Shown piece after piece: positions 48,995 through 64,000 of a DNA stretch of 64,000 bases (within the stretch, counting starts at the first letter, position 1; each line of letters begins with the position of its first letter). The translations under genes were made by a program, and so were the position numbers. This stretch comes from Arthrobacter castelli DSM 16402 (GTDB lineage Bacteria; Actinomycetota; Actinomycetes; Actinomycetales; Micrococcaceae). The notes under the pieces are model-generated. The model saw nothing but the letters and a program-made list of their open reading frames with translations. It was not told the DNA's origin and did no database searches. The stretch is taken from NCBI RefSeq assembly GCF_000430705.1, contig NZ_AUMN01000001.1, positions 310,001 through 374,000 on the forward strand, written 5' to 3'.

Positions 48995-50047
48995 GTGAGC
49001 AACGTCTTCGATCAACCAGACTCATATGATGAACAACCCCGTAAGCGGCATACCACCCGGAATGTGTTGTTCGTCTTTCTGGGTCTATTTCTCATCGCAG
49101 CGCTGGTGGCCGGCACCTATATCTATAACCTGGCCAACACGTTCAACAACAGCACCCAGAAAATCGAGACGGCGTTCCCCGACGAGTCCTCTCGGCCGAC
49201 CAAAGAACCCGAAGATAAGAACCCCGGTCCTGAAGCGGTGAACATCCTGCTGATGGGCAGCGACACCCGGGCGGACATGGGGAATCTGACCTCCGGCAGC
49301 CCCACCGGGGAACGATCCGACACGATCATGCTGATGCACATCCCGCCGGATCGCGAAAACGTCTATGTGATGTCCATCATGCGCGACCTCTGGGTCGAGA
49401 TTCCCGGACACGGTATGAACAAGATCAATGCCGCCATGTCCTTCGGCGGGATACCGTTAACCGTTCAGACCATTGAGGGCATGTTCGACGACCGCATCGA
49501 TCACGTGGCCGTCATCGACTTCCAAGGCTTCAAGGCCCTGACCGAGGCACTTGGCGGCGTGACGGTCAACGTCCCCTACAGCTTCTCGACGGGGGAGTAC
49601 GCATTCGAAGCCGGCCCCATGACACTGGAGGGCGAACAGGCGCTTGCGTTCGTTCGCGAACGTAAGGCGTTCTCCAGCGGTGATTACCAGCGGGTCGCCA
49701 ACCAACAGATCTTCGTCAAGGCATTACTGTCGGAGTTCCTGAACGCCAAGACGTTGACGAATCCGGGGCGTATTAGCGACGTCGTAAAGAACTTTGCGCC
49801 ATACATCAGTGTCGATGAACAATTGGACGCTGGTCGTGTCGGAGAACTTGCCTTCTCGCTGCGTGGGGTGCGGAGCGATGATGTCAAGATGTTCACGCTT
49901 CCAACTCAGGGAACTGGCACCTCTGACGATGGCCAGTCCATCGTGCTGAAGGATGAGCAAGCCATCGAGCGCATTTCGCAGGCGCTCGATGACGGCACTC
50001 TGGGCCAGTACCTGCAGAGCCAAGGTTTGGTTAATAGTGGAGGCTGA
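48995..50047 (+). CDS. LCP (LytR-CpsA-Psr) family glycopolymer ligase
   Basis: LCP enzymes attach undecaprenyl-linked glycopolymers to the cell wall. The 350-residue protein has a short cytoplasmic tail, one membrane helix (VLFVFLGLFLIAALVAGTYIY, 25-45) and an extracytoplasmic LCP domain (NILLMGSDTRADMGNLTSGSPTGERSDTIMLMHIPPDRENVYVMSIMRDLWVEIPGHGMNKINAAMSFGGIPLTVQTIEGMF). The domain holds the conserved Asp and Arg residues that bind the pyrophosphate. It opens the polysaccharide locus. GGGAG lies 9 bases before GTG 48995. Confidence 0.9.
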   Translation: MSNVFDQPDSYDEQPRKRHTTRNVLFVFLGLFLIAALVAGTYIYNLANTFNNSTQKIETAFPDESSRPTKEPEDKNPGPEAVNILLMGSDTRADMGNLTSGSPTGERSDTIMLMHIPPDRENVYVMSIMRDLWVEIPGHGMNKINAAMSFGGIPLTVQTIEGMFDDRIDHVAVIDFQGFKALTEALGGVTVNVPYSFSTGEYAFEAGPMTLEGEQALAFVRERKAFSSGDYQRVANQQIFVKALLSEFLNAKTLTNPGRISDVVKNFAPYISVDEQLDAGRVGELAFSLRGVRSDDVKMFTLPTQGTGTSDDGQSIVLKDEQAIERISQALDDGTLGQYLQSQGLVNSGG

Positions 50048-50131: not shown

Positions 50132-51529
50132 ATGGAGTTGCAGGACTACCTGAAGGTATTCCGCCAGCGGTGGCTTTCCATCGTTATCTTTGCGATTGCC
50201 GGGTTGGCTATAGCAGCCGTATACACCTTCCTGCAGACTCCTCAATATGAGGCCAGAACTCAGCTCTTCGTCTCCGTTGGCGGGTCCGAGTCGCCCACAG
50301 ATGCTGTCCAGGGCTCCACGTTCGCGGACTCCCGGATTTCCTCGTACGTGACGCTGGCGACGAGTCCGTCTGTTCTGGAGGCCGTAAAGAACGAACTGGA
50401 TTTGGAGAAATCCGTAGATCAACTGGCAGGGTCCGTGACGGCCAGTTCCCCGTCGGAAACCGTGCTCATCAACGTCACAGCCACAGATCCAGACCCCGAA
50501 CTTGCTGCCGATATATCGGTGACAACTGCGCAGAAATTGGTTCAGGCAGTTGAACGAGTCGAGGACGTGGGCCTGGTGCAGCTGAGCGTCTTCGAGAAGG
50601 CCGCGGTACCGACGGAACCGGTAACGCCGCGCACGACCATTAATTTGGCGTTGGGGGGCGTTCTCGGGCTGTTGATTGGCATGGGCGTCGCGGTTTTGCG
50701 GGAAATACTCGATACTCGGCTGCGGTCAGAGGAGGACATCAAGCGGGTCACCGATGCCGGCGTGCTGGGGACATTCGCTGCGGAGTCCGATATGGACCGT
50801 CATCCGCTAGTGACACAGCAGGAACCATACAGTCCGCGGGCTGAAAGCTTCCGTCAATTGCGTACCCATCTGCATTTCACCAACATTGAAGGCGGTTCGC
50901 AGAGCGTTGTCTTTACGTCGTCTGTCCCGGGCGAAGGTAAGAGCATCTCGGCCATTAACCTTTCCATCATGCTAGCCGAAAGCGGAACAAGAGTGCTGCT
51001 GGTCGATGCAGACCTCCGCAGACCCCGGGTGGCGAAGTATTTGGGGCTGGAAAATGTCGTCGGGCTGTCGACGGTCCTGTCACACCAGGTCTCTTTTGAA
51101 GACGCTGTTCAAAGCTGGGGGCCGGGTGGCGCACTAAACGTCATGACGGCCGGCCAGCTTGCTCCGAACCCAAGCGAGCTTCTCGGATCGCCCGTGATGG
51201 AGAAGCTCGTTCAGCAAATGGAAGAGCAGTATGAAGTTGTCATCATTGACGCTCCGCCGCTCCTGCCAGTGACGGATCCCGCGGTGTTGGGATCCATCGC
51301 CAGTGGAATTATTCTTGTGGTGAGCGCAGATGGCATGGTTAATCGGGACGAACTTGCACGATCAATTGAGAATATTGATGCTGTGAACGCTCGACTGCTG
51401 GGGCTGGTTCTTAACCGGCTTCCCATCACGCGTGGCAACTACAGCTACTACGACTACAAGCCGGATGCACCATCCAAACCACGTCGAGGCAAGGGAAAAC
51501 GCGAGCTATCGGGCATGAGGCACCTCTAG
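50132..51529 (+). CDS. Wzz/BY-kinase fusion: polysaccharide co-polymerase with tyrosine kinase
   Basis: The 465-residue protein combines a Wzz-type chain-length domain with two membrane helices (about 14-34 and 170-190) and a cytoplasmic BY-kinase. The kinase has Walker A at 266-271 (SSVPGEGKS), A' at 290-296 (LLVDADLRRPR) and Walker B at 371-374 (IIDAPPLLPVTDP). A C-terminal tyrosine cluster (NYSYYDY, 437-442) is the autophosphorylation tail. Kinase cycling controls polymer length and export. In Gram-positives these domains are often split (CpsC/CpsD); actinobacteria commonly fuse them. The cognate phosphatase gene begins 2 bases downstream. Confidence 0.9.
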   Translation: MELQDYLKVFRQRWLSIVIFAIAGLAIAAVYTFLQTPQYEARTQLFVSVGGSESPTDAVQGSTFADSRISSYVTLATSPSVLEAVKNELDLEKSVDQLAGSVTASSPSETVLINVTATDPDPELAADISVTTAQKLVQAVERVEDVGLVQLSVFEKAAVPTEPVTPRTTINLALGGVLGLLIGMGVAVLREILDTRLRSEEDIKRVTDAGVLGTFAAESDMDRHPLVTQQEPYSPRAESFRQLRTHLHFTNIEGGSQSVVFTSSVPGEGKSISAINLSIMLAESGTRVLLVDADLRRPRVAKYLGLENVVGLSTVLSHQVSFEDAVQSWGPGGALNVMTAGQLAPNPSELLGSPVMEKLVQQMEEQYEVVIIDAPPLLPVTDPAVLGSIASGIILVVSADGMVNRDELARSIENIDAVNARLLGLVLNRLPITRGNYSYYDYKPDAPSKPRRGKGKRELSGMRHL

Positions 51530-51531
51530 AC

Positions 51532-52137
51532 ATGGAATCACCGAGTCCTTTTCGTATTCTCACGGTATGCACAGGGAACGTCTGCCGTTCCGCCATGGTG
51601 GAACGAGTCCTACAAGCAATGCTCGACCAAAGTTCGCCCGGTAGTTTTGACGTGCGCAGTGCCGGCACGCACGCGCTCGTGGGCCAAAGCATGACGGCGG
51701 AAATCGCGCAATTGGTTCGAGACGCAGGTGGAAGCGATACGGGGTTCGAATCAAGGCAACTGACGGGACAGGTGCTTGCTGAGCAAGACCTGGTACTGGC
51801 GCTAACGAGGGAACACCGGGCGAAGGTCTTGGAAATTTCTCCAAAACATCTTCGCCGCACCTTCACGCTGAGGGAATTTGGTCGTATGGTGCAACTCATT
51901 ACCGAGGAATCAGGATCCGCCATCGAATGGTCGGCAACTGCTTACGACAGGTGGAAGCAGTTGATCCCCGCTGTCACATCCGTGAGGCACCAGGTCATTG
52001 GGACGGCTGCCGACGACGACGTCGTGGACCCGTACCGCAGAGACATGAGCGTACATCATCAAATGTTGCATCAGATCGAACCGGCCCTTGCCGCCTTATC
52101 TGGGTTTCAAACCCGCTCAGTAGAGGCGCAAGCCTGA
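51532..52137 (+). CDS. Low-molecular-weight protein-tyrosine-phosphatase
   Basis: The 201-residue enzyme has the active-site loop CTGNVCRS (Cys13 to Arg19) and DPYRRD near 167, which contributes the general acid. It would dephosphorylate the tyrosine tail of the kinase encoded just upstream. The protein is about 40 residues longer than the classic 150-160, with a helical insertion between (FGRMVQLITEESGSAIEWSATAYDRWKQLIP), as seen in other actinobacterial members. Confidence 0.88.
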   Translation: MESPSPFRILTVCTGNVCRSAMVERVLQAMLDQSSPGSFDVRSAGTHALVGQSMTAEIAQLVRDAGGSDTGFESRQLTGQVLAEQDLVLALTREHRAKVLEISPKHLRRTFTLREFGRMVQLITEESGSAIEWSATAYDRWKQLIPAVTSVRHQVIGTAADDDVVDPYRRDMSVHHQMLHQIEPALAALSGFQTRSVEAQA

Positions 52138-52209
52138 ACAAATTTCATTGGGGGACTAACGAGACGTCACTGGGGGCCAACGGGACGCTAAATGTGAAGG
52201 ACGATGAAA

Positions 52210-53988
52210 ATGGGACAACCGAGTGCCGTTCCCCGCCAATTTGGTCAGTTCGTCATCGACGCCCTTATCTGGGGCTTGGCAATATGCTTTGGCGTGCTCC
52301 TGCGTTTCGACTTCAACGCTGCAATGGCCAATTGGTCGTGGGTGTTTGTCTACTGCGCTATGGCGGCTGTATTACAGGGTGTCGGCGGTTCATTCGTTGC
52401 ACTGTACAGGGGACGGTACAGGTACGGATCGTTCGATGAAGCGCGGCCCCTTGTCTGCGTCGTTGTCGGTGTCGGGGGAGTGCTTTTTGTACTCGGCCTC
52501 CTGCTCATCTCCGCCTCAGGTGTTCCACGGAGCACTATTCTCATAGCCCTCCCTGCAGCGTTCGCCATGATGGGAGCCGTACGCTACTGGCGCAGGATTG
52601 CTGTCGAACGCAAGCATCGGCCAGGCGATAATGCACAGCGTGCCTTGGTCTACGGTGCCGGACATCTGGGCGAAAATGTCGTCCGCAACATGCTTAAGGA
52701 CCCGATCTCACCGTATGTGCCGGTTGGATTGATCGATGATGACCTTCGCAGGCAGCAGTTGCGATTGACCGGAGTGCCGGTTCTCGGTCAGGGGACCGAC
52801 TTGGAGGAGATAGCCGAACGTACCGGAGCCAGCGCACTCATAATGTGTATTGCCCGGGCCGAAGCCGATACCGTCCGGGAAATTTCCGACCGGGCGGATT
52901 GTGCGGGACTGCGATTGCTGGTGCTGCCGCCCCTGGAAGAGATACTTGAAGGTGGCGGACAGCTTACCGACGTGCGCGATGTCAGGATCGAAGACATCAT
53001 TGGCCGCCACCCGGTCGACACGGACATCGCCTCGATCGCCGACTATCTCGCGGGCAAGAGGGTTCTGGTTACCGGAGCCGGTGGTTCGATTGGTGCAGAG
53101 CTATGCCGCCAGATCGCAAAGTTCTCCCCCGAAGAGCTGATTATGCTCGATAGGGATGAGTCCGGGCTGCAAACTACGCAGCTTTCGATCCTGGGCCATG
53201 GTTTATTGAACAGCAGGGACGTTGTGCTCGCAGATATCCGTGATCGCGATGTCGTCGGTGGCATTTTCTGCGAGCGTCGGCCGCAAGTGGTTTTCCATGC
53301 GGCCGCATTGAAGCACTTGCCATTGCTCGAGCAGTATCCCGAAGAAGGTTGGAAGACGAACGTTCTGGGAACTTTGAATGTCATCGAAGCCGCGTTGGAC
53401 ATACAGGTGGACACTTTCGTCAACGTTTCCACTGACAAGGCAGCGGACGCGACGAGCATATTGGGTCGCACCAAACGGCTCGGTGAGCGTTTGACAGCAT
53501 GGGCCGCAGAAAGGACAAACGGGACTTTTCTATCCGTTCGCTTCGGGAACGTCATCGGCAGCCGCGGCTCTATGCTGCCACTATTCGCCGGGCAAATTGA
53601 AAGAGGAGGGCCGGTTACCGTCACCCACCCTGACGTAACGCGCTATTTCATGACGATCCCGGAGGCCTGTCAACTGGTTGTTCAGGCGGGAGGTATTGGC
53701 CGGGACGGTGAAGTACTCATTTTGGATATGGGAGAGCCCATAAAGATTCTGGACGTGGCTAAGCGGATGATTAACATGACTGGCCGCGACATTCCGATCG
53801 AGTTCACCGGGCTCCGGCCAGGGGAAAAGCTCCACGAGGTGCTCATTGGGCAGTCCGAGCACGACGAACGTCCACTGCACCCCAAAATTTCACACGCTTC
53901 CGTTCCAGGTTTGGAACCTGGCGAACTTCCGGCATATGCCGTGGATGAAGGCGCTCCATCGGTCCTCCAGCAACCAAGCCAATCATAA
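52210..53988 (+). CDS. Membrane-anchored nucleotide-sugar 4,6-dehydratase (PglF/WbpM/CapD type)
   Basis: From ATG 52210 the protein has 592 residues. Four membrane helices (about 10-115) precede a CoA-binding-like domain (RALVYGAGHLGENVV) and the catalytic SDR domain, RVLVTGAGGSIGAELCRQIA. VNVSTDKAADATSILGRTKRL holds the Ser and Lys; the position usually occupied by Met or Tyr is Leu. LRPGEKLHEVLI ends it. It would convert UDP-GlcNAc to the 4-keto-6-deoxy sugar. ATG 52204 is an alternative start with poorer spacing to AAGGA. It probably supplies the aminotransferase encoded at 55.3 kb. Confidence 0.87.
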   Translation: MGQPSAVPRQFGQFVIDALIWGLAICFGVLLRFDFNAAMANWSWVFVYCAMAAVLQGVGGSFVALYRGRYRYGSFDEARPLVCVVVGVGGVLFVLGLLLISASGVPRSTILIALPAAFAMMGAVRYWRRIAVERKHRPGDNAQRALVYGAGHLGENVVRNMLKDPISPYVPVGLIDDDLRRQQLRLTGVPVLGQGTDLEEIAERTGASALIMCIARAEADTVREISDRADCAGLRLLVLPPLEEILEGGGQLTDVRDVRIEDIIGRHPVDTDIASIADYLAGKRVLVTGAGGSIGAELCRQIAKFSPEELIMLDRDESGLQTTQLSILGHGLLNSRDVVLADIRDRDVVGGIFCERRPQVVFHAAALKHLPLLEQYPEEGWKTNVLGTLNVIEAALDIQVDTFVNVSTDKAADATSILGRTKRLGERLTAWAAERTNGTFLSVRFGNVIGSRGSMLPLFAGQIERGGPVTVTHPDVTRYFMTIPEACQLVVQAGGIGRDGEVLILDMGEPIKILDVAKRMINMTGRDIPIEFTGLRPGEKLHEVLIGQSEHDERPLHPKISHASVPGLEPGELPAYAVDEGAPSVLQQPSQS

Positions 53989-54031
53989 TGGCTCCAACCT
54001 GTCGGCCATTTGTCACAAGAGATTGAAGGTC

Positions 54032-55090
54032 ATGAATATGAACACGTCTTATGCAGGCAAGAAAATTCTGATCACCGGAGGAACAGGGTCCTTTGGCCAT
54101 ACCGTGGCAAAGAAGCTCCTCGACCGTGATGTGGAAGAAGTACGGATCCTGAGCAGGGATGAGGCTAAGCAGGATGCGATGCGCCGTCAGCTTGCGGACC
54201 CGAGACTGCGCTTCTACGTGGGGGACGTCCGGGAATACCAGAGTGTTGATCGGGCCGTGAAGTCCGTGGATCACGTATTCCACGCGGCGGCGTTGAAGCA
54301 GGTTCCCTCCTGCGAATTCTTTCCGATGGAGGCTATTCGTACCAATATCCATGGCAGCGAAAACGTGATCAGGGCCGCTGAGGCGCATGGGGTTGCATCC
54401 GTTGTTTGCTTGAGTACCGATAAAGCCGTGTACCCAGTCAACGCCATGGGCATGAGCAAGGCGATGATGGAGAAGGTGGCTCAATCGCATGGTTTGAACA
54501 ATCGTGAAGCGGAGACAATCGTATCCTGCGTCCGGTACGGGAACGTGATGTACTCCCGCGGATCGGTGATTCCGCTGTTTGTCGATCAAATAAAGTCCGG
54601 AAAGCGATTGACTATTACCGACCCGGATATGACCAGGTTTATGATGTCGTTGTCCGATTCTGTGGAGCTGGTCGAGTTTGCGTTCAGCAACGCGAACCAG
54701 GGAGACCTGTTTATCCGCAAGGCTCCTGCTTGCACAATTGGCGACCTGGCGAAGGCCGTCGGTAACCTATTCCAAATATCGCCCGAAATTGACGTGATTG
54801 GCACCCGCCACGCTGAAAAGGTTTCAGAGTCGTTGGCAAGCCGCGAAGAACTTGCCCGGGCGCGGGACATGGACGACTATTTCCGTATCGAAGCGGACAC
54901 TCGTGACCTGAACTACAACGTCTTCTTCTCCGAGGGAGACCCCAATCAAGTGATGTACGACGACTATGATTCCCATTCAGTTTCACGTATGGATATACCA
55001 GAGATTGAAGCCCTGCTTCTAACTCTGCCCGAAATTCAGTCCGAACTGCAGATCGCCGGTATCGAGCCGCGAATAAGCGTTGCTGGATAG
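54032..55090 (+). CDS. UDP-GlcNAc 4,6-dehydratase/5-epimerase, CapE/FnlA type
   Basis: The 352-residue soluble SDR reads KKILITGGTGSFGHTVAKKLLDRDVEEVRILSRDEAKQDAMRRQLADPRLRFYVGDVREYQSVDRAVKSVDHVFHAAALKQVPSCEFFPMEAIRTNIHGSENVI. The catalytic segment is STDKAVYPVNAMGMSKAMMEK, with MxxxK in place of YxxxK, the hallmark of CapE. It starts the route to UDP-N-acetyl-L-fucosamine, continued by the CapF- and CapG-like enzymes further right. ATG 54038 is an alternative start. The gene overlaps nothing and follows the dehydratase by 43 bases. Confidence 0.9.
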   Translation: MNMNTSYAGKKILITGGTGSFGHTVAKKLLDRDVEEVRILSRDEAKQDAMRRQLADPRLRFYVGDVREYQSVDRAVKSVDHVFHAAALKQVPSCEFFPMEAIRTNIHGSENVIRAAEAHGVASVVCLSTDKAVYPVNAMGMSKAMMEKVAQSHGLNNREAETIVSCVRYGNVMYSRGSVIPLFVDQIKSGKRLTITDPDMTRFMMSLSDSVELVEFAFSNANQGDLFIRKAPACTIGDLAKAVGNLFQISPEIDVIGTRHAEKVSESLASREELARARDMDDYFRIEADTRDLNYNVFFSEGDPNQVMYDDYDSHSVSRMDIPEIEALLLTLPEIQSELQIAGIEPRISVAG

Positions 55091-55312: not shown

Positions 55313-56452
55313 ATGGCCGACCGCGTGCTGATGTCGCCGCCCGACGTCGGACAGGTTGAGGAGGAGTACGTTCTCCAGGCAATGAGATCGGGTTGGGTGG
55401 CTCCCACCGGACCTGACGTCACGGCATTCGAGAATGAAATTGCTGACCGGGTAGGAGTTGGACACGCAGTTGCGCTGAGCTCCGGTACCGCTGCGTTGCA
55501 TCTCGGCATGCTTGGCCTTGGAGTTGGGCCCGGCGACGTGGTGATCGTACCCACGATGACCTTTGTGGCCAGCGCGAATGCAGTGACGTATACCGGCGCC
55601 CGGCCCTGTTTCGTTGATGTCAGCCCTGACGATGGAAATATGGATCCTCAGGTGCTTCGGGATGCCATTTCCTACGTGCAGGCTGAGGGACACCATGTAG
55701 CAGCCGTAATGAGTGTCGACATATTCGGCGTATGCGCAAATAACACAGCTATCGCCAAGGTGTGCGCTGACGCAGGCGTGCCCTTGATCGAGGACGCAGC
55801 CGAAGCTCTGGGAGCTACAGATGAAACGGGCCAAGCTGCGGGAAGCTTTGGCAGGGTCGCAGCACTGTCATTCAACGGCAATAAGATAATGACCACCAGC
55901 GGCGGCGGCATGCTTGTCAGTAACGACAAGGAGCTGGCCGATCACGCACGGTTCCTGAGCACTCAGGCACGGGAGCCAGTGTTGCACTACGAACACAAAC
56001 ACATAGGCTACAACTATCGCATGAGCAATATCCTCGCGGCGTTGGGCCGGGGGCAGCTGAGCCGCTTGGACTCGATGATCGCCAGGCGCCGCGAAATCCG
56101 CGAGATCTATCACTCTCTGTTCGACCCGCTGCCCGGGATACGTCTTTTCGGCGCTGAGCAGGAACAGACGGCCAACTGCTGGTTGTCGTCGGTCGTGGTT
56201 GACCGTGAGGTGGCCGGCTTCTCGGCGAGTGAACTCGGCGAATTCCTCAACGGCCGCAATATCGAATGTCGTCCGTTGTGGAAGCCGATGCACCTGCAGC
56301 CGACTTTTGCAGACTCCCTCCGCTATGTGACAGGAGCAGCCCAGGGTCTCTTCGAAAGCGGCCTGACACTACCCAGCGGATCGGCACATGATGATGCAGT
56401 CATCAACGGAGTCACTGAGACGATTCGCGAGTTTATGGCGGCTGGAGCATGA
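55313..56452 (+). CDS. DegT/DnrJ/EryC1 sugar aminotransferase
   Basis: The 379-residue PLP enzyme opens SPPDVGQVEEEYVLQAMRSGWVAPTGPDVTAFE and has SSGTAALHLGMLGLGVGPGDVVIVPTMTFVASANAVTYTGARPCFVDV, DAAEALGA and the PLP lysine in SFNGNKIMTTSGGGML. It would aminate C-4 of a UDP-4-keto-6-deoxy sugar, as PglE and WbpE-like proteins do. AAGGAGG lies 8 bases before the ATG. It sits between the CapE- and CapF-like genes, so two nucleotide-sugar pathways are interleaved. No acetyltransferase of the PglD type is in the window. Confidence 0.88.
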   Translation: MADRVLMSPPDVGQVEEEYVLQAMRSGWVAPTGPDVTAFENEIADRVGVGHAVALSSGTAALHLGMLGLGVGPGDVVIVPTMTFVASANAVTYTGARPCFVDVSPDDGNMDPQVLRDAISYVQAEGHHVAAVMSVDIFGVCANNTAIAKVCADAGVPLIEDAAEALGATDETGQAAGSFGRVAALSFNGNKIMTTSGGGMLVSNDKELADHARFLSTQAREPVLHYEHKHIGYNYRMSNILAALGRGQLSRLDSMIARRREIREIYHSLFDPLPGIRLFGAEQEQTANCWLSSVVVDREVAGFSASELGEFLNGRNIECRPLWKPMHLQPTFADSLRYVTGAAQGLFESGLTLPSGSAHDDAVINGVTETIREFMAAGA

Positions 56453-57576
56453 AGGTTGCGGTCACAGGCGGGCATGGCTTCCTGGGCTGGCACACTGCGG
56501 TCAGGCTGCGTGCACTTTACGACATCGAGCCGGTATTGCTACGGCGCGAAGACTTCGCCGACCCATCCGGGCTTTCGACTGCACTGAGCCAAGTGGATAC
56601 GGTCATCCATTTGGCCGGGGTCAACAGAGCCGGAACTGACGACGAGGTCGAGTCCGGGAACATGCAGATTGCAGAAGTCCTCGCGGAGGCGCTGACAGAA
56701 GCCGGCGGACGACATCACGTTGTTTATGGCAACTCCATCCAGTCCGAACTTGATAACCCTTACGGCCGGGGCAAGGCACGGGCGGGAGAGGCGCTGAAAT
56801 CAGCACTGATGACTACCGGCGGCTCTGTAGCAAATGTGCTGCTGCCGAATCTCTTCGGCGAGCACGGCCAACCGTACTACAACTCCTTCGTCGCCACCTT
56901 CTGTCATGAGATTGCACATGGACGCAAACCTGAAGTGACCGGGGACAAAGAGGTGCGTCTACTGCATGCACAGCGGGCCGCTGACCTTTTGATCGAATCG
57001 TCCCTTCGTCGTGAGAATCACCAGCGGACCCCCGAGGGCGATTCTTTTCAAGTCAGCGAAATCCTGATCCGCCTTATCGACTTTGATGATGCATACGGGC
57101 AGGGTCAGATACCAGCCTTGACCGACCCTTTTACGATCGATCTATTCAACACTTTCCGGTCATATCTGTTTCCTCAGCATTTTCCGTTCCGACCCAACGT
57201 GAACGCAGATGAACGCGGAGAGCTGTTCGAGACGGTCCGGATGCACGGTGGGACAGGACAAACGTTCGTGTCCTCAACTGTCCCAGGGGCAGTTCGAGGC
57301 GAGCATTATCATCTAAACAAGATCGAACGGTTCTTCGTGCTGAAGGGCACGGCGGAGATAGCTCTGCGTCGTGTCCTGGACGATGAGATTCTCCGTTTTC
57401 GGATCACTGGCGATGAACACGGCTTCGTGGACATGCCCACGATGTGGACCCACAAGATCAGCAATGTGGGCGAAGATGAATTGCTCACCATGTTTTGGAC
57501 GGATCAGCTATTAGACCCGGCTGCCCCCGACACCTACCGGGAGCACGTCGAGTCCGAAGGGAACCGAGGTCTGTGA
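56449..57576 (+). CDS. CapF-type UDP-sugar reductase/epimerase with cupin domain
   Basis: The 375-residue bifunctional protein has an N-terminal SDR domain (MKVAVTGGHGFLGWHTAVRLRALYD, VIHLAGVNRAGTDDEVE, NPYGRGKARAG) and a C-terminal cupin (GELFETVRMHGGTGQTFVSSTVPGAVRGEHYHLNKIERFFVLKGTAEIALRRV, with metal-binding His/Glu). This is the CapF architecture that makes UDP-L-6-deoxytalose-NAc from the CapE product. It overlaps the aminotransferase gene by 4 bases and the epimerase gene downstream in the same way. Confidence 0.9.
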   Translation: MKVAVTGGHGFLGWHTAVRLRALYDIEPVLLRREDFADPSGLSTALSQVDTVIHLAGVNRAGTDDEVESGNMQIAEVLAEALTEAGGRHHVVYGNSIQSELDNPYGRGKARAGEALKSALMTTGGSVANVLLPNLFGEHGQPYYNSFVATFCHEIAHGRKPEVTGDKEVRLLHAQRAADLLIESSLRRENHQRTPEGDSFQVSEILIRLIDFDDAYGQGQIPALTDPFTIDLFNTFRSYLFPQHFPFRPNVNADERGELFETVRMHGGTGQTFVSSTVPGAVRGEHYHLNKIERFFVLKGTAEIALRRVLDDEILRFRITGDEHGFVDMPTMWTHKISNVGEDELLTMFWTDQLLDPAAPDTYREHVESEGNRGL

Positions 57577-58691
57577 CTAAAGTAATGACGATCGTGGGTA
57601 CGAGGCCTGAGATCATCCGGCTCTCCCGGGTGATAGACCGTCTCGACGATACGGTGGACCATGTGCTGGTTCATACGGGCCAGAACTACGACCGCCAACT
57701 GAACCAGGTGTTTTTCGATGACCTTGGACTTCGGGCCCCCGATCATTACCTGGACGTGAACACCTCGTCGCTGGGGCAGGTCCTTGGCGAGATCCTGATC
57801 AAATCAGAACAAGTACTTCTCTCGGAGAAACCCGATGCCGTGCTGGTTCTTGGAGATACCAACTCCTGCATTGCAGCTGTGATGGCCAAACGGATGCGTA
57901 TTCCCGTCTACCACATGGAAGCTGGAAACCGGTGTTTCGACGAGAACGTTCCAGAAGAAACGAACCGCCGCCTCGTCGATCACGTCGCAGATTTCAACTT
58001 GGTCTATACAGAACATGCACGGCGCAATCTGCTGTCGGAAGGGCTCCACCCACGCAGGATTCTGCTGACAGGTTCTCCGATGCGGGAAGTCCTGGAACGA
58101 TACCGGAACGAAATTGACGCCTCGGATGTGGTGGGCAAGCTGGCTCTTGAACCTCAGAAGTATTTCCTCGTTTCAGCCCACCGCGAGGAGAACGTTGACT
58201 CACCTGAACGATTGGGGCAGCTTGTTGACTGCCTGAAGGCTGTGTACGAGCAGTGGAACTTTCCTGTCATTGTTTCGACACATCCCAGGACACGGCGGCG
58301 CCTTGCTGCCTTGGACGCTGATCTTGGCGAGGCAGATATCCGGTGGCTGGAACCCTTCGGGTTTCACGATTACAACAAGCTGCAACTTGAATCGGCATGC
58401 ACGCTCTCTGACAGCGGAACTATCTCTGAAGAGTCCTCCATACTCGGCTTTCCTGCGATCACTTTGCGGGATTCCATAGAACGGCCTGAAGCACTGGACA
58501 GTGGCTCGATCACCATGACGGGCCTTGAGGCGGGCAATGTTGTTGAAGCCGTCGATCTCGCATTGCAGGTTGGTTCCCGAGGCTTGTCGATGCCGGCGGG
58601 ATATGAGATCAACGACACGAGTAACCGCGTCGTCCGCTTTATTGTGTCGACTTGGCGCAGGCATGCGCAATGGGCGGGCCTTCGCAAATGA
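57573..58691 (+). CDS. UDP-N-acetylglucosamine 2-epimerase family (CapG/WbjD type)
   Basis: The 372-residue protein reads KVMTIVGTRPEIIRLSRVIDRLDDTVDHVLVHTGQNYDRQLNQVFFDDLGLRAPDHYL, with the conserved VLVLGDTNSCIAAVMAKRMRIPVYHMEAGNRCFDENVPEETNRRLVDHVADF. The position after CapE/CapF fits conversion to UDP-L-FucNAc. GTG 57573 overlaps the CapF stop (GTGA). A longer frame from 57495 lacks family similarity. FHDYNKLQLESACTLSDSGTISEESSILGFPAITLRDSIERPEALDSG completes the active site. Confidence 0.9.
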   Translation: MTKVMTIVGTRPEIIRLSRVIDRLDDTVDHVLVHTGQNYDRQLNQVFFDDLGLRAPDHYLDVNTSSLGQVLGEILIKSEQVLLSEKPDAVLVLGDTNSCIAAVMAKRMRIPVYHMEAGNRCFDENVPEETNRRLVDHVADFNLVYTEHARRNLLSEGLHPRRILLTGSPMREVLERYRNEIDASDVVGKLALEPQKYFLVSAHREENVDSPERLGQLVDCLKAVYEQWNFPVIVSTHPRTRRRLAALDADLGEADIRWLEPFGFHDYNKLQLESACTLSDSGTISEESSILGFPAITLRDSIERPEALDSGSITMTGLEAGNVVEAVDLALQVGSRGLSMPAGYEINDTSNRVVRFIVSTWRRHAQWAGLRK

Positions 58692-59626
58692 CCGATGGGA
58701 CTGATCGTGAATCGACGGTGCAACGGCGTTCGCTCGGGGGGCATGTCGTGGAAGCTGGCTTGGCGGCCGTTGGCTTCGATGCCAGTGCCAATAACGATGT
58801 GGCGCTCGTTGAAACGGCGCGACCACACCGCTCACCATACCGGATCGTGCTGGCTCAGAACGCGTGGAACGTGGTTGACATTTCCACATTCTGGACCCTG
58901 CTGGGTAACTACCCGATGTCCCGCCGCCTTCGATATATCGTTCGGCGTGTGATTGCAGGGATCAATCTCCGCCGGGCAAAAAAAGTTGTTTGTCTTACTG
59001 AGTCGATGTCCGCCCTTTGTGCCAAGTACTCCAGTAATGTCGTCACGTCGCCTGTGACAGTCCCGGTTGACTTCCTCTCGCGGTCAGCTCCGCAGGCAGA
59101 AGCCGACTGGTCTGATACCGTCCTCGTTCCCGGGACCGTAACCTGGCACAAAAATCCGGTCGAGGCCATCCGGATAGTGCAAGCGCTTCAACGTAATGGG
59201 ACGTCAATCGCCAAGGTCGTTTTTGCGGGCTCCGACGATGGCTCCGGTAGCTGGCAGGAAGTTGAATCGGCCGCAAACGCCGCCGGTATTCCCTGCTCGC
59301 GAATGAGGTTGTCGCGGGACGAGATGTCCATTGCATGTGCCTCGGCAGCGGCTGTGGTGATACCAAGCCATCTCGAGAGCTTGAGCCTTTCGATGGCGGA
59401 AGCATTGGCGACTGCTTCGATTGTCATTGCGAGTGATATTCCGGCGCATCGGGAGCTTGCCCGCCGGTTGGGCCGTGAGCCGGTATGGGGCCGTGATGAA
59501 GTTGGTCTTGAACGGCTTCAGGAGCAGGCTCTGCCGGATCTCGATGTCAACGGACTTTGGCGGGAATGGAACAGACTAGGCGAATCCCTTGACTTGCCAA
59601 CGATGGCTGGTCCTCCCGAGGGGTAG
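58688..59626 (+). CDS. Glycosyltransferase family 4-like
   Basis: The 312-residue protein resembles the GT-B fold of family 4. The N-part is short, YRIVLAQNAWNVVDISTFWTLLGNYPMSRRLRYIVRRVIAGINLRRAKKVVCLTESMSALC. The C-part, DTVLVPGTVTWHKNPVEAIRIVQALQRNGTSIAKVVFAGSDDGSG and VVIPSHLESLSLSMAEALATASIVIASDIPAHRELA, holds the nucleotide-sugar-binding ESLSLSMAEA motif. At 312 residues it is somewhat shorter than the usual 350-400. Which sugar it adds is unknown. It overlaps the epimerase stop by 4 bases. Confidence 0.8.
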   Translation: MTDGTDRESTVQRRSLGGHVVEAGLAAVGFDASANNDVALVETARPHRSPYRIVLAQNAWNVVDISTFWTLLGNYPMSRRLRYIVRRVIAGINLRRAKKVVCLTESMSALCAKYSSNVVTSPVTVPVDFLSRSAPQAEADWSDTVLVPGTVTWHKNPVEAIRIVQALQRNGTSIAKVVFAGSDDGSGSWQEVESAANAAGIPCSRMRLSRDEMSIACASAAAVVIPSHLESLSLSMAEALATASIVIASDIPAHRELARRLGREPVWGRDEVGLERLQEQALPDLDVNGLWREWNRLGESLDLPTMAGPPEG

Positions 59627-59679: not shown

Positions 59680-60501
59680 ATGAACGCAAGCGCAAAGATC
59701 AGCGAACAGATGCGACGCGTGGCGGCGCGCTCCACCAGAGAAATTATGCGGCGTCGCGGAACTGATTTGGGTATGTACATGGGGTGTGGATTTCCCAAAT
59801 CCGGCACCGTGTGGCTCTGCCAGCTTCTCGGCACTGCGTTGGGCGTTCCGTACCCGCGTGAGTACCGGTCTCCGATTGCGATGGCCTCGGTGATACATAC
59901 CCACTGGCGCTATGACGCGAAGTATCCGGCCACCGCGTACATTAGGCGCGACGGTCGCGATGTCATGCTGTCACTCTATTTCTATTATGTTCGCGCTTTG
60001 GACCATCCAGGTAAGCCAAGCCGCGCGCGGAATCTGCGCGAAATGTTTGAACACATGTATGGGCCGGGCTTCGATGCGACAGCTGTACGTGAGAACCTGC
60101 CGAAATTCATCGAGACCCAGATGCGTTCTCCCCGTGGGTCCGAAGGGCTTGCCTGGCATCAACACGTCTCGGATTGGTGGCAGAGACCCGGGGTTGCACA
60201 CGTGTCGTACGAGGAACTGCTCGCTGACCCAGTGCCGGCCGTCATGAGGCTGACTAACGAGCTGACTGGATCTGCGGACGATAATATCGCCCGCCTGGCT
60301 GCCGAACGGTGGTCGTTTGCCACGGCGGCTCAGCGCAAACCCGGGCAAGAGGACCGATCCAGTTTCATGCGCAAGGGAGTCGCCGGCGACTGGAGTAACT
60401 ACTTCAGCCGCGAAGCCGGAGAAGTTTTTGACTCCTTTGCCGGCGCAGAGTTGGTGGAGTTTGGGTATGCGTCGGATAGAGATTGGTATCTGAATCTGTG
60501 A
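59680..60501 (+). CDS. Sulfotransferase (PAPS-dependent)
   Basis: The 273-residue enzyme has the 5'-phosphosulfate loop YMGCGFPKSGTVWLCQLLGTALG at about 33-55 and the 3'-phosphate region TAYIRRDGRDVMLSLYFYYVRAL. GWHQHVSDW-like text (LAWHQHVSDWWQRPGVAHVSYEELLADP) and the final RKGVAGDWSNYFSREA motif match cytosolic-type sulfotransferases that use PAPS. It would transfer sulfate to a carbohydrate or lipid hydroxyl. Sulfotransferases are unusual in Gram-positive polysaccharide loci. It is closely linked to a deacetylase and a second sulfotransferase. Confidence 0.87.
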   Translation: MNASAKISEQMRRVAARSTREIMRRRGTDLGMYMGCGFPKSGTVWLCQLLGTALGVPYPREYRSPIAMASVIHTHWRYDAKYPATAYIRRDGRDVMLSLYFYYVRALDHPGKPSRARNLREMFEHMYGPGFDATAVRENLPKFIETQMRSPRGSEGLAWHQHVSDWWQRPGVAHVSYEELLADPVPAVMRLTNELTGSADDNIARLAAERWSFATAAQRKPGQEDRSSFMRKGVAGDWSNYFSREAGEVFDSFAGAELVEFGYASDRDWYLNL

Positions 60502-61361
60502 GGACTCTCAAAACCCAGGTACGTGCAGGCGCTCGAAGCATGGCTCTCGATGCCTTATCCACATGGCGCTCTGTCAGTGGAAGAGACAGGGAAGCGTTCG
60601 AACGCCCCCGGGTCTACTTTCCATACCTGCACGACGTGCCAGAGGACGAAGAAAACGCTTTTCGGGCGTTTGTCGAGATGTTATCGGACAGCCATACATT
60701 TCTCTCGTACAGCGATGCGATAGATAGAGTCCTCAATGGGCCAATTGATAAGCCCTATGTGGCGTTCAGCTTCGATGATGGTTTTGCGAGTAACATCGCT
60801 GCATCGAGAATCCTTGAGGAATATGGCGCAACAGGTTGCTTTTTTGTGCCACCGGGTTTTATCGATAGCAAACTACCGACCGCTGATGCGATGAGAGAGT
60901 TTGGCTTTTCCCCAGGGACCTGCGAGGAACCCATGACATGGAGCGATCTCGAGGACATGAAATCCAGAGGCCATGAAATCGGAAACCATACCTTGAACCA
61001 CAGGACTTTGTCGTCCATTTCCGAGGAACAAGCGTCAGACGAAATATCACGGGGCGCTGATCGAATCCGTGGAGTCCTTGGTGAATGCCGGCACTTTGCC
61101 TGGCCGCGGGGTCAGTTCAAGCACATGACGGATATCGCGGCACGCACAGTATTCGAAACGGGGCACGACAGTTGTGCTTCAGCGGAGCGAGGGGCACATG
61201 TTCAACCGCTCCATAGTGATCCACAGTTGCTGTGCGTCAGACGTGACCACATTATGACATCGTGGCCTTTACGGCACGACAAATACTTTATTGGAAGGGC
61301 CAGCGAGACGGCGTCGGGACAATCGAATGCATGGCCCCACGGTTGGAGTGTCAGGCCATGA
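60498..61361 (+). CDS. Polysaccharide deacetylase (NodB domain)
   Basis: The 287-residue protein has the NodB motif FSFDDGF (metal-binding Asp-Asp) and HTLNHRTL (two His), with the later ECRHFAWPRGQFKHMTD. This is the fold that removes N-acetyl groups or acts on polysaccharide chains. There is no signal peptide, so it may act on cytoplasmic lipid-linked intermediates. GTG 60498 overlaps the sulfotransferase stop (GTGA), and its own stop overlaps the next gene. N-deacetylation next to sulfotransferases recalls heparan-type N-sulfation, though that is speculative. Confidence 0.85.
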   Translation: MRTLKTQVRAGARSMALDALSTWRSVSGRDREAFERPRVYFPYLHDVPEDEENAFRAFVEMLSDSHTFLSYSDAIDRVLNGPIDKPYVAFSFDDGFASNIAASRILEEYGATGCFFVPPGFIDSKLPTADAMREFGFSPGTCEEPMTWSDLEDMKSRGHEIGNHTLNHRTLSSISEEQASDEISRGADRIRGVLGECRHFAWPRGQFKHMTDIAARTVFETGHDSCASAERGAHVQPLHSDPQLLCVRRDHIMTSWPLRHDKYFIGRASETASGQSNAWPHGWSVRP

Positions 61362-62212
61362 CTTCACTGCCGGATTTCCTCGTAATTGGTGCTCAGAAGT
61401 GTGGCACGACAACGCTCTACGAAGATCTGCGATCTCATCCCCGCGTTTTCATCCCTGACAAAGAGACCTCCGGTTTAGTGGATCTCAAATTAGATGATGC
61501 GTCCTCAGTTGAGAAGTATTGCTCCATGTTCGAGCAGGGCGGAAGCCGCTTGAGCGGTGAAGTCTCCACCTTATACTCGATGCTGCCAATGTACGACGTG
61601 GCGCGGACCGCGGGACGGCTGTTGGGGGCAGCACAGATTTTGTACATAGTGCGCGAGCCGATATCGCGTGTGATCAGTCATCATCACCATGAATTCTCGG
61701 CCGGGGCTATGGGGCCTGATATCGACGTGGAGGTGGAACAGCGCCCCGAACTGGTCGACAACTCCCGCTACGCAACCCAAGTCGCGCCGTGGATCGACGC
61801 GTTTGGCAGGTCGAATGTTCACATCATTCGTTTCGAAGATTATATGGCGGATCGCCAGGCGGGAGCCGACGGCGTGTTCCGCAAATTGGGTCTTGACCAA
61901 TGGAAACTGCCAACAGCCTCTGAGGCATTCAACACAGCCGATAATAAGTTCCTTGCGACCGGTCTTAGGGGGAAGGTTTCACGTAGCACGCCGTATCGGA
62001 GACTGATCAGACCGCTATTCCCGGAGGCCGTCCGCCGCCGGCTCATGCGCCTGGTCTTGCCCAAACCGCCAAAAAGACCTAATCCTCCCAGTGAAGATAC
62101 AGTGGCAGAGCTCGTCCGTCGTTTGCAACCGGAAGTAGTGGCCCTGTCCGAATGGACTGGTGGCGAACTATGGTGGGATCTGAACACCGTCTTGGAGAAC
62201 CACCGTGGTTAA
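61358..62212 (+). CDS. Sulfotransferase (second, PAPS-dependent)
   Basis: The 284-residue enzyme begins MTSLPDFLVIGAQKCGTTTLYEDLRSHPRVFIPDKETSGL, the 5'-phosphosulfate loop typical of heparan N-sulfotransferase/Stf0-like families. ILYIVREPISRVISHHHHEFSAG covers the 3'-phosphate-binding region. The C-terminal tail is Pro/Lys/Arg-rich (RLMRLVLPKPPKRPNPPSEDTVAELVRRLQPEV). It differs clearly from the sulfotransferase at 59.7 kb, so two distinct positions or acceptors are likely. It overlaps the deacetylase by 4 bases. Confidence 0.87.
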   Translation: MTSLPDFLVIGAQKCGTTTLYEDLRSHPRVFIPDKETSGLVDLKLDDASSVEKYCSMFEQGGSRLSGEVSTLYSMLPMYDVARTAGRLLGAAQILYIVREPISRVISHHHHEFSAGAMGPDIDVEVEQRPELVDNSRYATQVAPWIDAFGRSNVHIIRFEDYMADRQAGADGVFRKLGLDQWKLPTASEAFNTADNKFLATGLRGKVSRSTPYRRLIRPLFPEAVRRRLMRLVLPKPPKRPNPPSEDTVAELVRRLQPEVVALSEWTGGELWWDLNTVLENHRG

Positions 62213-63509
62213 ACTCCAGTCCGGCCAGCCTCGCCGCCTCTCCCTGAGGCGAAACTTCAGCTGGAATTTTGCGGGCACCGTCACCTATAACCTTGCTCAG
62301 TGGCTGTTGTTGGTCATTCTTGCCCATGTTGCTGGTGCGGCGCAGGTCGGTCTGTTCTCTCTCATGCTGGCTATTTCGGCCCCGGTCTTCCTGACAGTCG
62401 GGTTGAACCTGCGAGTCCTGCAAGTTACCGATGCAAGCCGCTTTTGGCGGTTGTCGGAATATTTGGCACTGCGTCACATTCTGAACCTGTTGGCGGTATT
62501 GCTCACTGTCGCTGCGGGAGCCATTGCGGGGCTTCATGGTGAGGAACTTTTCGCGCTCGTCATCATAGCTCTGGCCAAGTGTGTCGAGGCGGTCAGCCAA
62601 ACGTATTATGCGTACTTCCAGCAGCACGACCGTCTGGATCTGGTCGCTCGTGATTTGGTGGCGCGGAGTGCAACTGGTCCCATATTGTTCCTGATCGGGG
62701 TGGCTTACGGAGGGAATCTTGTATTTGGCGCCAGTGGCCTGCTGGTGGGGTGGCTGATACCGCAACTCCTCCTGGATCGCCCGAACGCCCGGCGCCTTGC
62801 AGCACAAGGCGGACTGGCACTACGTAGAGAGGGTGGCCTGGACTGGAGATCTATGGTCAGGCTGGCGCGCAAGGGCGTTCCACTGGGATTGGACCAAGGG
62901 CTGAGTTCGTTAGCAATAAACATCCCGCGATATGCGGTACAAGGCGTCCTCGGGCCCGCGAGTTTGGGAATCTACGCGACCTTGGCGTATCTCGCTCAGA
63001 CAGTCCAGCTGATCACGTCGACGCTGACAACTGCAGCAATAAACCGGCTCTCTATTCATCATTACGAAGGCAGGAAGAAAGCGTTCCTGCGTCTGTTGAC
63101 CAAGCTTACTGCCTTCGGGATGGCGGTTATGGCAGTGGCGATACTTGGTGCCTTCCTACTGGGAGAGCCCTTCCTGCAACTGGTGCTCGGCGAACAGTAT
63201 GCCGATAGGAGCCTGCTGATCGCGCTCATGCTCAGTGCCGGTGTGACGACCTTTCAACGTGCGCTGTGTAAGGGAGTGGAAGCCGCGCGTCGGTTCAAAA
63301 CATACGTCCTCGTGGATATAGCAACAACTGCGGGCGTTGCAGGTTTGTCTTGGTACTGCGTTGAGCGTTGGGGTCTTGAAGGCGCAGCTGTGGCGATGGC
63401 CGGCGGCTTTGGTATCGGCATTATCGTTGTCGGCGTTGTTCTTTTCGATGTAGTTCGTAAAATGCCCAAGGTAGCTGCATCCGAAGTCCGAGAAGAGCCT
63501 GGGAGTTGA
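62205..63509 (+). CDS. Oligosaccharide flippase (Wzx/MOP family)
   Basis: The 434-residue membrane protein has 11-12 helices and the MOP/Wzx pattern: RRNFSWNFAGTVTYNLAQWLLLVILAHVAGAAQVGLFSLMLAISAPVFLTVGLNLRVLQVTDA at the start, PLGLDQGLSSLAINIPRYAVQGVLGPASLGIYATLAYLAQTVQLITSTLTTAAINRLS later, and a final helix pair. It would move lipid-linked repeat units across the membrane, feeding the polymerase. GTG 62205 overlaps the previous stop by 8 bases. Confidence 0.87.
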   Translation: MVKLQSGQPRRLSLRRNFSWNFAGTVTYNLAQWLLLVILAHVAGAAQVGLFSLMLAISAPVFLTVGLNLRVLQVTDASRFWRLSEYLALRHILNLLAVLLTVAAGAIAGLHGEELFALVIIALAKCVEAVSQTYYAYFQQHDRLDLVARDLVARSATGPILFLIGVAYGGNLVFGASGLLVGWLIPQLLLDRPNARRLAAQGGLALRREGGLDWRSMVRLARKGVPLGLDQGLSSLAINIPRYAVQGVLGPASLGIYATLAYLAQTVQLITSTLTTAAINRLSIHHYEGRKKAFLRLLTKLTAFGMAVMAVAILGAFLLGEPFLQLVLGEQYADRSLLIALMLSAGVTTFQRALCKGVEAARRFKTYVLVDIATTAGVAGLSWYCVERWGLEGAAVAMAGGFGIGIIVVGVVLFDVVRKMPKVAASEVREEPGS

Positions 63510-63512
63510 TCC

Positions 63513-64000
63513 GTGACCGTTAAACATGCTTCCTCGGCGGCGGAAGTGCGTTCTCGAGTAAGCCCGAGGCGGATCTCTCCCGCTCTCATCGCCTGGCTTA
63601 TTGCTCTCGTGCTGTGCTATATCGGCGAATTAACGGTGTTGGGATCCAAGCAGACGCAGCTCGCCATCTCGCTCATCGGGCTGGCGCATAGTGTCTCGGG
63701 GTTCTGGTCAGATGGAGGGAAGCGCATTAGTGCGCCGGGCATTTCGTTCTTTGCCTCAGCTCTTTTCGTGTATTTTCCGGGAGCTTATTTAGCTCTCACT
63801 CCAGCCGCGATGTTTTACCATCTTGACCTGACTCGAGCGATTACGATCGTCCTGGTTATGCAGGTACTTGCTTATCATCTTGTGTGGCAGTATCGCAGGG
63901 TTTCGAACAGCTCCGACGTCAAGACGATACCGCCAAGTGTCGCTCGGCCTGGTATGGTCCTGGGGCTGGTTTTTCTGGCTGCTGGCGTGGGGGCATCATT
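63513..64000 (+). CDS. Membrane protein, probable polysaccharide polymerase (Wzy-like), 3' part off window
   Basis: From GTG 63513, with GGGAG upstream, the visible 162 residues begin VTVKHASSAAEVRSRVSPRRISPALIAWLIALVLCYIGELTVLG and continue through several hydrophobic helices to the right edge. Position after the flippase and the many membrane spans suggest an O-antigen-type polymerase. The conserved polymerase region is beyond the window, so the identity is inferred from context only. Confidence 0.6.
   Translation, partial: MTVKHASSAAEVRSRVSPRRISPALIAWLIALVLCYIGELTVLGSKQTQLAISLIGLAHSVSGFWSDGGKRISAPGISFFASALFVYFPGAYLALTPAAMFYHLDLTRAITIVLVMQVLAYHLVWQYRRVSNSSDVKTIPPSVARPGMVLGLVFLAAGVGAS

Follow-up and report, generated by a model that had tools for sequence, protein, structure and literature searches.

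Does a Gram-positive bacterium build a polymer that is both de-N-acetylated and sulfated, using enzymes encoded side by side? Combined de-acetylation and sulfation of sugars is best known from animal heparan sulfate. We address this question for a locus of Arthrobacter castelli DSM 16402 in which a polysaccharide N-deacetylase gene lies between two sulfotransferase genes, all three within a 64,000-nucleotide stretch of contig NZ_AUMN01000001.1 (G000:C1:310001-374000; hereafter the window). To judge from its genes, a sulfated, partly de-N-acetylated exopolymer would be a well supported product, and we consider it likely that the polymer carries sulfate and at least one de-N-acetylated amino sugar. 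The locus is probably of the Wzx/Wzy type and makes a sulfated exopolymer or capsule whose amino sugars include N-acetyl-L-fucosamine (L-FucNAc). Sulfated Wzx/Wzy loci are already known; what appears to be new is an N-deacetylase among several sulfotransferases, recurrent in Gram-positives. Outside cyanobacteria, bacterial exopolymers with sulfate are said to be uncommon (PMC13390465), although marine examples have been reported (PMC11766843; PMC11641403). A recurrent Gram-positive locus would give genetic access to bacterial glycosaminoglycan-like chemistry and would also provide cytosolic deacetylase and sulfotransferase partners; obtaining active NDST by bacterial expression is said to be a bottleneck for the biosynthesis of heparin (PMC13353177). 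In the open-licence literature, no title or opening of an abstract that we found describes this gene set.

Overlapping sulfotransferase and deacetylase genes

The three genes run head to tail on the forward strand inside the Wzx/Wzy locus. ST1 (59680..60501) encodes a SULT-like sulfotransferase (PF00685, E 4.2e-17, 62.8 bits against a cut-off of 22). The deacetylase gene starts at GTG 60498 (alternatively TTG 60483), ends at 61361, and encodes a CE4 polysaccharide N-deacetylase (PF01522, E 7.7e-19, 68.3 bits against a curated cut-off of 23.1). ST3 (ATG 61358..62212) encodes a heparan-sulfate-type sulfotransferase (PF13469, E 3.2e-11, 44.4 bits, cut-off 27; PF00685, E 4.5e-9, 36.5 bits, cut-off 22). 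In the Pfam scan the deacetylase frame was read from 60483 and the ST3 frame from 61262. Both junctions are 4-base start/stop overlaps (GTGA at 60498-60501 and ATGA at 61358-61361), and the end of ST3 overlaps the frame of the Wzx flippase, which starts at 62205. These overlaps suggest translational coupling.

The sequence-only reading had proposed two sulfotransferases with differing 3'-phosphoadenosine 5'-phosphosulfate (PAPS) loops around an N-deacetylase-type enzyme, in overlapping frames, within an actinobacterial polysaccharide locus. This description is borne out in each of its parts. The 5'-PAPS loops, KSGT and KCGT, are both present, and ST1 and ST3 belong to different sulfotransferase subfamilies. 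The metal-binding and catalytic residues of the deacetylase (D93, D94, H164 and H168; Asp-Asp and His-x3-His) do not vary among the 30 sequences aligned. A flippase, a Wzz-like chain-length protein, an initiating sugar transferase and sulfotransferases stand together in one locus (PF01943, PF02706, PF02397 and PF00685/PF13469) with Fnl sugar genes, and two more sulfotransferase genes lie on the reverse strand beyond the window end: STc (L008:957-1874) and STd (L008:2524-3474). Hydropathy analysis found no hydrophobic or membrane segment in ST1, the deacetylase, ST3, STc or STd. From their sequences, these five modifying enzymes look cytosolic, in keeping with work in the compartment that holds PAPS.

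Recurrence of the deacetylase with sulfotransferases

We searched an order-level and a phylum-level sample of 396 genomes each, plus a collection of named genomes. In the order-level sample of 396, five genomes had a deacetylase match at E 1e-10, and two of the five reached E 1e-20: A. castelli itself and Janibacter corallicola NBRC 107790 (G178, contig C31), a member of the same order. The same two genomes accounted for the ST1 matches at E 1e-25 (2/396). The end of Janibacter contig C73 and the start of C31 both lie inside cysD and share 44 identical bases, which indicates that the Janibacter genes form one locus. Its first part holds a glycosyltransferase (49% identity), STd (52%), the initiating transferase (58%), an open reading frame (ORF) that we take to be TauE-like (the counterpart on A. 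castelli contig C23 matches PF01925), CysC, CysD and CysN. There follow ST1 (41%), the deacetylase (38%), an extra PF13469 protein, a FemAB/GNAT-like protein and ST3 (32%), and lastly FnlC (67%), FnlB (48%), FnlA (56%), DegT (57%) and CapD (48%). The FemAB/GNAT-like gene (L020:9366-10397, reverse strand) lies between two sulfotransferase genes, and its product might put an acyl group on the amine that the deacetylase leaves.

In the phylum-level sample, the deacetylase matched at E 1e-20 in 3 of 396 genomes (A. castelli, G688 and G767). A single stretch of G767 carries CapD (51%), FnlA, FnlB, FnlC, a glycosyltransferase, the initiating transferase, STd (34%), DegT, ST3 (36%) and the deacetylase (32%); for ST1, the phylum-level search gave no match in this genome, and nothing better than E 0.09 was found within the 51 kb read. 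The G688 match is a 4.2-kb contig that carries the deacetylase with no sulfotransferase in sight. Among the named genomes, the top deacetylase match (48%) came from Dietzia natronolimnaea, on an 8-kb contig that also encodes FnlC, ST1 (50%, opposite strand) and Wzx (42%). This contig has no ST3; the second PF00685 match of that genome lies on a different contig and is related to ST3 at 25% identity. The wider gene set recurs, with drift, in Janibacter and G767, and in part in Dietzia. Because ST1 is missing from G767 and ST3 from the Dietzia contig, we rejected the idea that the three genes which the sequence-only reading took as a set form an obligate unit. The loci are not alike in gene order or strand, suggesting that retention of the parts exceeds simple synteny.

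How unusual is this company for a deacetylase? The deacetylase stands beside at least one sulfotransferase in all four actinobacterial loci with enough context (A. castelli, Janibacter, Dietzia and G767). As a control we took 80 loci with deacetylase matches, of which 78 were neither Dietzia nor Janibacter and 13 were under 10 kb. A sulfotransferase motif or profile match was present in the flanks of 4 of the 78 (L022; L039, weak; L046 and L052, motif only), in scans that can miss divergent sulfotransferases. Fisher tests gave p values of 4e-5 with A. castelli included, 4e-4 without it, and 0.0015 without it and with G688 counted as lacking a sulfotransferase; they are a guide only, as the profiles were built partly from positive loci, some loci are short and the loci are related. 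In one control, a Myxococcales metagenome-assembled genome (L022:2579-6251), the deacetylase (40% identity) has a PF13469 sulfotransferase nearby, with no evident polysaccharide locus around them.

The distribution of the sulfotransferases also bears on whether they modify the polymer at all. Their acceptor might instead be a small molecule or glycolipid, with the polymer made by the sugar genes only. Among solved structures ST1 is nearest to small-molecule SULTs, and ST1 relatives with 37-43% identity occur in eight f34 genomes of the phylum-level sample. In the nine stretches read from these eight genomes (L113-L121; several contigs are short), neither a deacetylase match at E 1e-4 nor the FnlABC set was found beside the ST1 relatives. 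However, three genomes, each from a different family, have ST3 and STd within CapD-FnlABC-DegT loci, and two of them have ST1 there as well; in A. castelli, the frames of ST1 and ST3 overlap those of the deacetylase and the flippase. We therefore regard a small-molecule or glycolipid substrate as improbable. The f34 stretches also contain a CysC/APS kinase match (L118, 37%; APS, adenosine 5'-phosphosulfate), an STc match (L115, 28%) and weak CysQ matches (L113 and L114).

Enzyme families and the fate of the freed amine

We compared the predicted deacetylase model (predicted local distance difference test score, pLDDT, 89) with known structures, alongside Foldseek and profile searches. The closest folds were IcaB (Z 23.4), PplD (Z 23.2) and PgaB (Z 22.4); Bacillus peptidoglycan and polysaccharide deacetylases were close behind (Z 22.1-22.2), so that no nearest fold is singled out. 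NDST was not in the structural lists, whose best matches are CE4 enzymes; this is not proof of a different fold. The deacetylase domain of NDST is reported to be Agd3-like (PMC10864358) and nearer to CE18 than to CE4 (PMC13353177). By profile matches and predicted model, the A. castelli enzyme best fits the CE4 PgaB/IcaB/PplD type rather than the one that animal NDST is reported to have.

The sulfotransferases are less easily placed. The ST1 profile matched many SULT structures in the PDB, an amine sulfotransferase being one of them (7v1o, 4.8e-11). An ST3 profile built from three sequences matched 3rnl first, then 3-OST-3A1 (1.2e-9) and NDST1 (1nst, 1.9e-7); one built from two sequences matched the NDST1 sulfotransferase domain (1nst, 1.4e-6) and 3-OST-5 (1.9e-6). 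A DKE motif of ST3 is conserved in 3 of 3 sequences, and its Glu aligns with a 3-OST-5 Glu that we take to be catalytic. Structure prediction for ST3 from two sequences reached a pLDDT of 43 and was not used. A paralog on contig C14 (L013) likewise matches 3-OST and NDST1, so the resemblance is one of class and does not tell N- from O-sulfation. Identification of ST3 as an N-sulfotransferase by homology was rejected as unprovable on this basis, since the 3-O enzymes match equally well.

These assignments bear on what happens to the amine once the acetyl group is removed. One candidate is an NDST-like sequence of reactions, in which the CE4 enzyme frees the amine and ST1 or ST3 N-sulfates it. 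The overlap of deacetylase and sulfotransferase frames, their association across the four actinobacterial loci, the reach of the ST3 profiles to 1nst and of the ST1 profile to 7v1o, and the fold of the deacetylase, whose nearest structures are polysaccharide de-N-acetylases, are all consistent with it. N-sulfated exopolymers have also been measured in Pontiella, in which 75% and 80% of the sulfate of two strains was N-linked; that bacterium belongs to a different phylum, and the genes for its exopolysaccharides are not proven (PMC7356697). Against N-sulfation, ST3 matches 3-O-sulfotransferases about as well or better, its paralog matches both kinds too, and neither ST1 nor ST3 is found in every deacetylase locus. 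We regard N-sulfation by ST1 or ST3 as a real possibility, and bacterial N-deacetylation/N-sulfation with a different deacetylase family as a tentative reading that is probably not correct. If it were, a prokaryotic pathway in the cytosol would modify an amino-sugar repeat while it is lipid-linked, by convergence with animal NDST, which we hold to be rather unlikely. The same doubtful standing goes to its wider form, a PgaB/PplD-type CE4 enzyme paired with an NST/3-OST-like or SULT-like sulfotransferase and spread across actinobacterial families as a capsule locus.

The other candidate is a polymer whose amine is left free (zwitterionic) or later acylated, with all sulfates O-linked; the models would be HfsH in the processing of holdfast, or NodB and NodH in Nod factor synthesis. 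HfsH (NF050820) is the top NCBIfam match to the deacetylase, below threshold (38.6 bits against an equivalog cut-off of 400), and the Janibacter FemAB/GNAT-like gene would supply a candidate acyltransferase. Caulobacter HfsH, like the PgaB/IcaB/PplD group, carries out CE4-type polysaccharide deacetylation, and it is reported to be cytosolic, with amine unmasking as its proposed role (PMC5362036). On the other side, no acyltransferase was recognised among the genes of the window locus that were scanned, and the idea leaves unexplained the sulfotransferase company of this deacetylase clade, which is mostly not seen with distant relatives. PgaB and IcaB act outside the cytosol, and to our knowledge the HfsH, PgaB, IcaB and PplD systems involve no sulfation. 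Overall, a free or re-modified amine is more likely than an N-sulfated one, and most sulfates are probably O-linked; the full scheme with exclusively O-linked sulfates has, in our estimate, a little under an even chance.

The likeness to animal glycosaminoglycan modification raised by the sequence-only reading thus holds halfway. As in NDST, a metal-dependent N-acetylhexosamine (HexNAc) deacetylase is paired with a PAPS-dependent sulfotransferase, and the ST3 profile reaches the sulfotransferase domain of NDST1. Unlike NDST, which is one two-domain protein, the A. castelli enzymes are encoded by separate, overlapping genes, look cytosolic and include a deacetylase that matches CE4 enzymes, the NDST domain being reported as Agd3-like, and the locus has FucNAc genes and no recognised uronic acid gene.

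Supply of PAPS

PAPS synthesis genes are present in the genome, as the sequence-only reading would lead one to expect. On contig C23, CysC, CysD and CysN each score over their curated cut-offs and a CysQ-like protein scores under its own. CysC has 435 amino acids, with the kinase domain C-terminal. CysH was not found, the one genome protein that matches PF01507 being CysD (control positive in 14/14 genomes); nor was a sulfite reductase, the one match to PF01077 (NIR_SIR) being NirB (control 11/14), in a genome with a stated completeness of 98.95%. With no reductive sulfate assimilation found, PAPS in this strain probably serves sulfation. APS kinase is present in 17 of 99 relatives, A. castelli included. 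The cassette adjoins a second polymer locus (L012:1-12083) with an ABC exporter, TagD-like and CDP-alcohol transferase genes and two PF03567 sulfotransferases, which possibly makes a sulfated teichoic-type polymer. The APS kinases at L012:5530-6834 and L128:4768-5961 (both reverse strand) carry about 210-255 extra N-terminal residues that match no Pfam family.

The CysC/Q/D/N cassette is also present in a sister species, G782 (L148), together with one of the two PF03567 proteins; that genome has two PF00685 matches. In the G782 stretches read, neither ST1 nor the deacetylase had a match, while a 27% ST3 relative and a 28% STc relative were present, suggesting that the cassette is older than the locus with the three genes. 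The grouping seen in Janibacter has a parallel in the capsule cluster of Cobetia marina, where a sulfotransferase stands with cysN/C, cysD and cysQ and the polymer structure has been solved; that capsule is ABC-exported, and the main text of the report mentions no deacetylase (PMC11766843).

Proposed pathway and points against it

From gene content, homology, overlaps, recurrence and the PAPS genes we infer the following substrate, step order, sulfate linkage and product. CapD, FnlA, FnlB, FnlC and DegT would make amino-deoxy sugars linked to uridine diphosphate (UDP), from which a small initiating transferase and two glycosyltransferases would assemble a short repeat carried by undecaprenyl diphosphate. 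While the repeat still faces the cytosol, one HexNAc would lose an acetyl group to the CE4 enzyme, and as many as four sulfotransferases would add sulfate from PAPS, supplied by CysD, CysN and CysC, with the CysQ-like protein clearing 3'-phosphoadenosine 5'-phosphate. Wzx would then flip the repeat unit, Wzy would polymerise it, and a wall-attachment protein may anchor the polymer.

Two known loci resemble this arrangement. In the cyanobacterium Synechocystis, the Synechan (xss) locus is of the Wzx/Wzy kind and encodes two sulfotransferases from distinct subfamilies, and its sulfated polymer has been measured; unlike here, no deacetylase is mentioned in the main text of that report (PMC8205485). 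The actinomycete Actinoplanes missouriensis has a Wzx/Wzy locus, wps-1, with two sulfotransferases, one of the heparan-sulfate type, whose product was predicted in June 2026, but not chemically shown, to be sulfated; the one deacetylase mentioned there belongs to wps-3 and not to wps-1 (PMC13390465).

Several observations weigh against a sulfated, de-N-acetylated polymer as the product. No family match names the substrate of any of the sulfotransferases or of the deacetylase. The PAPS genes lie outside the window locus, beside another polymer locus, and occur in G782 as well, so their presence cannot count as specific evidence. An APS kinase and two PF01507 matches, the second besides CysD, occur in both Janibacter and Dietzia, so that PAPS or APS could serve assimilation there too. 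In G767, the PAPS proteins of the window strain had no match within about 51 kb. Finally, the candidate Wzy has no Pfam match in its L008 part and is so called by position only.

The surrounding locus and further sulfotransferase genes

All other genes of the locus inside the window are on the forward strand. An ORF at 48995..50047, with a hydrophobic segment near residue 25, is one that we take to be LytR-CpsA-Psr-like; its product may link the polymer to the cell wall. It is followed by a Wzz/tyrosine-kinase-like chain-length protein (50132..51529; PF02706, AAA_31), a low-molecular-weight phosphotyrosine phosphatase (51532..52137; PF01451) and a membrane UDP-HexNAc 4,6-dehydratase, presumably CapD/FlaA1-type (52204..53988; PF02719; 48% to the Janibacter homolog and 51% to that of G767). 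The FnlA-like dehydratase/epimerase (longest ORF 53846..55090; TIGR04130, E 5e-131, under its cut-off) shows homology from about residue 70, placing the true start further in. Next come a DegT-type sugar aminotransferase (55313..56452; PF01041; LegC/PseC-like, under cut-offs), an FnlB-like reductase (56449..57576; NF047837, E 3e-66, under cut-off), an FnlC/WecB-like 2-epimerase (57495..58691; PF02350; TIGR00236 over cut-off) and a glycosyltransferase (58652..59626; PF00534, PF13692). Downstream of ST3 are Wzx (62205..63509; PF01943) and the candidate Wzy-like polymerase (63513..64000, running past the window end to L008:898).

Beyond the window, in L008 and also on the reverse strand, lie the initiating sugar transferase (PF02397), between STc and STd, and, after STd, a WcaI-subfamily-like glycosyltransferase (below cut-off), presumably WbuB; the ORFs after it are, we assume, thiL and recG. 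Promoter and terminator scans gave site numbers about equal to those in shuffled sequence. G+C content is 0.555-0.574 in bins from 50001 onward against 0.575-0.677 before. PF00685 has six matches in the whole genome, four of them in this locus, and at least two PF03567 proteins are encoded elsewhere. Further sulfotransferase genes lie in other loci of the same genome, L013 (contig C14) and L014 (contig C6), one of them a relative of the ST3 class.

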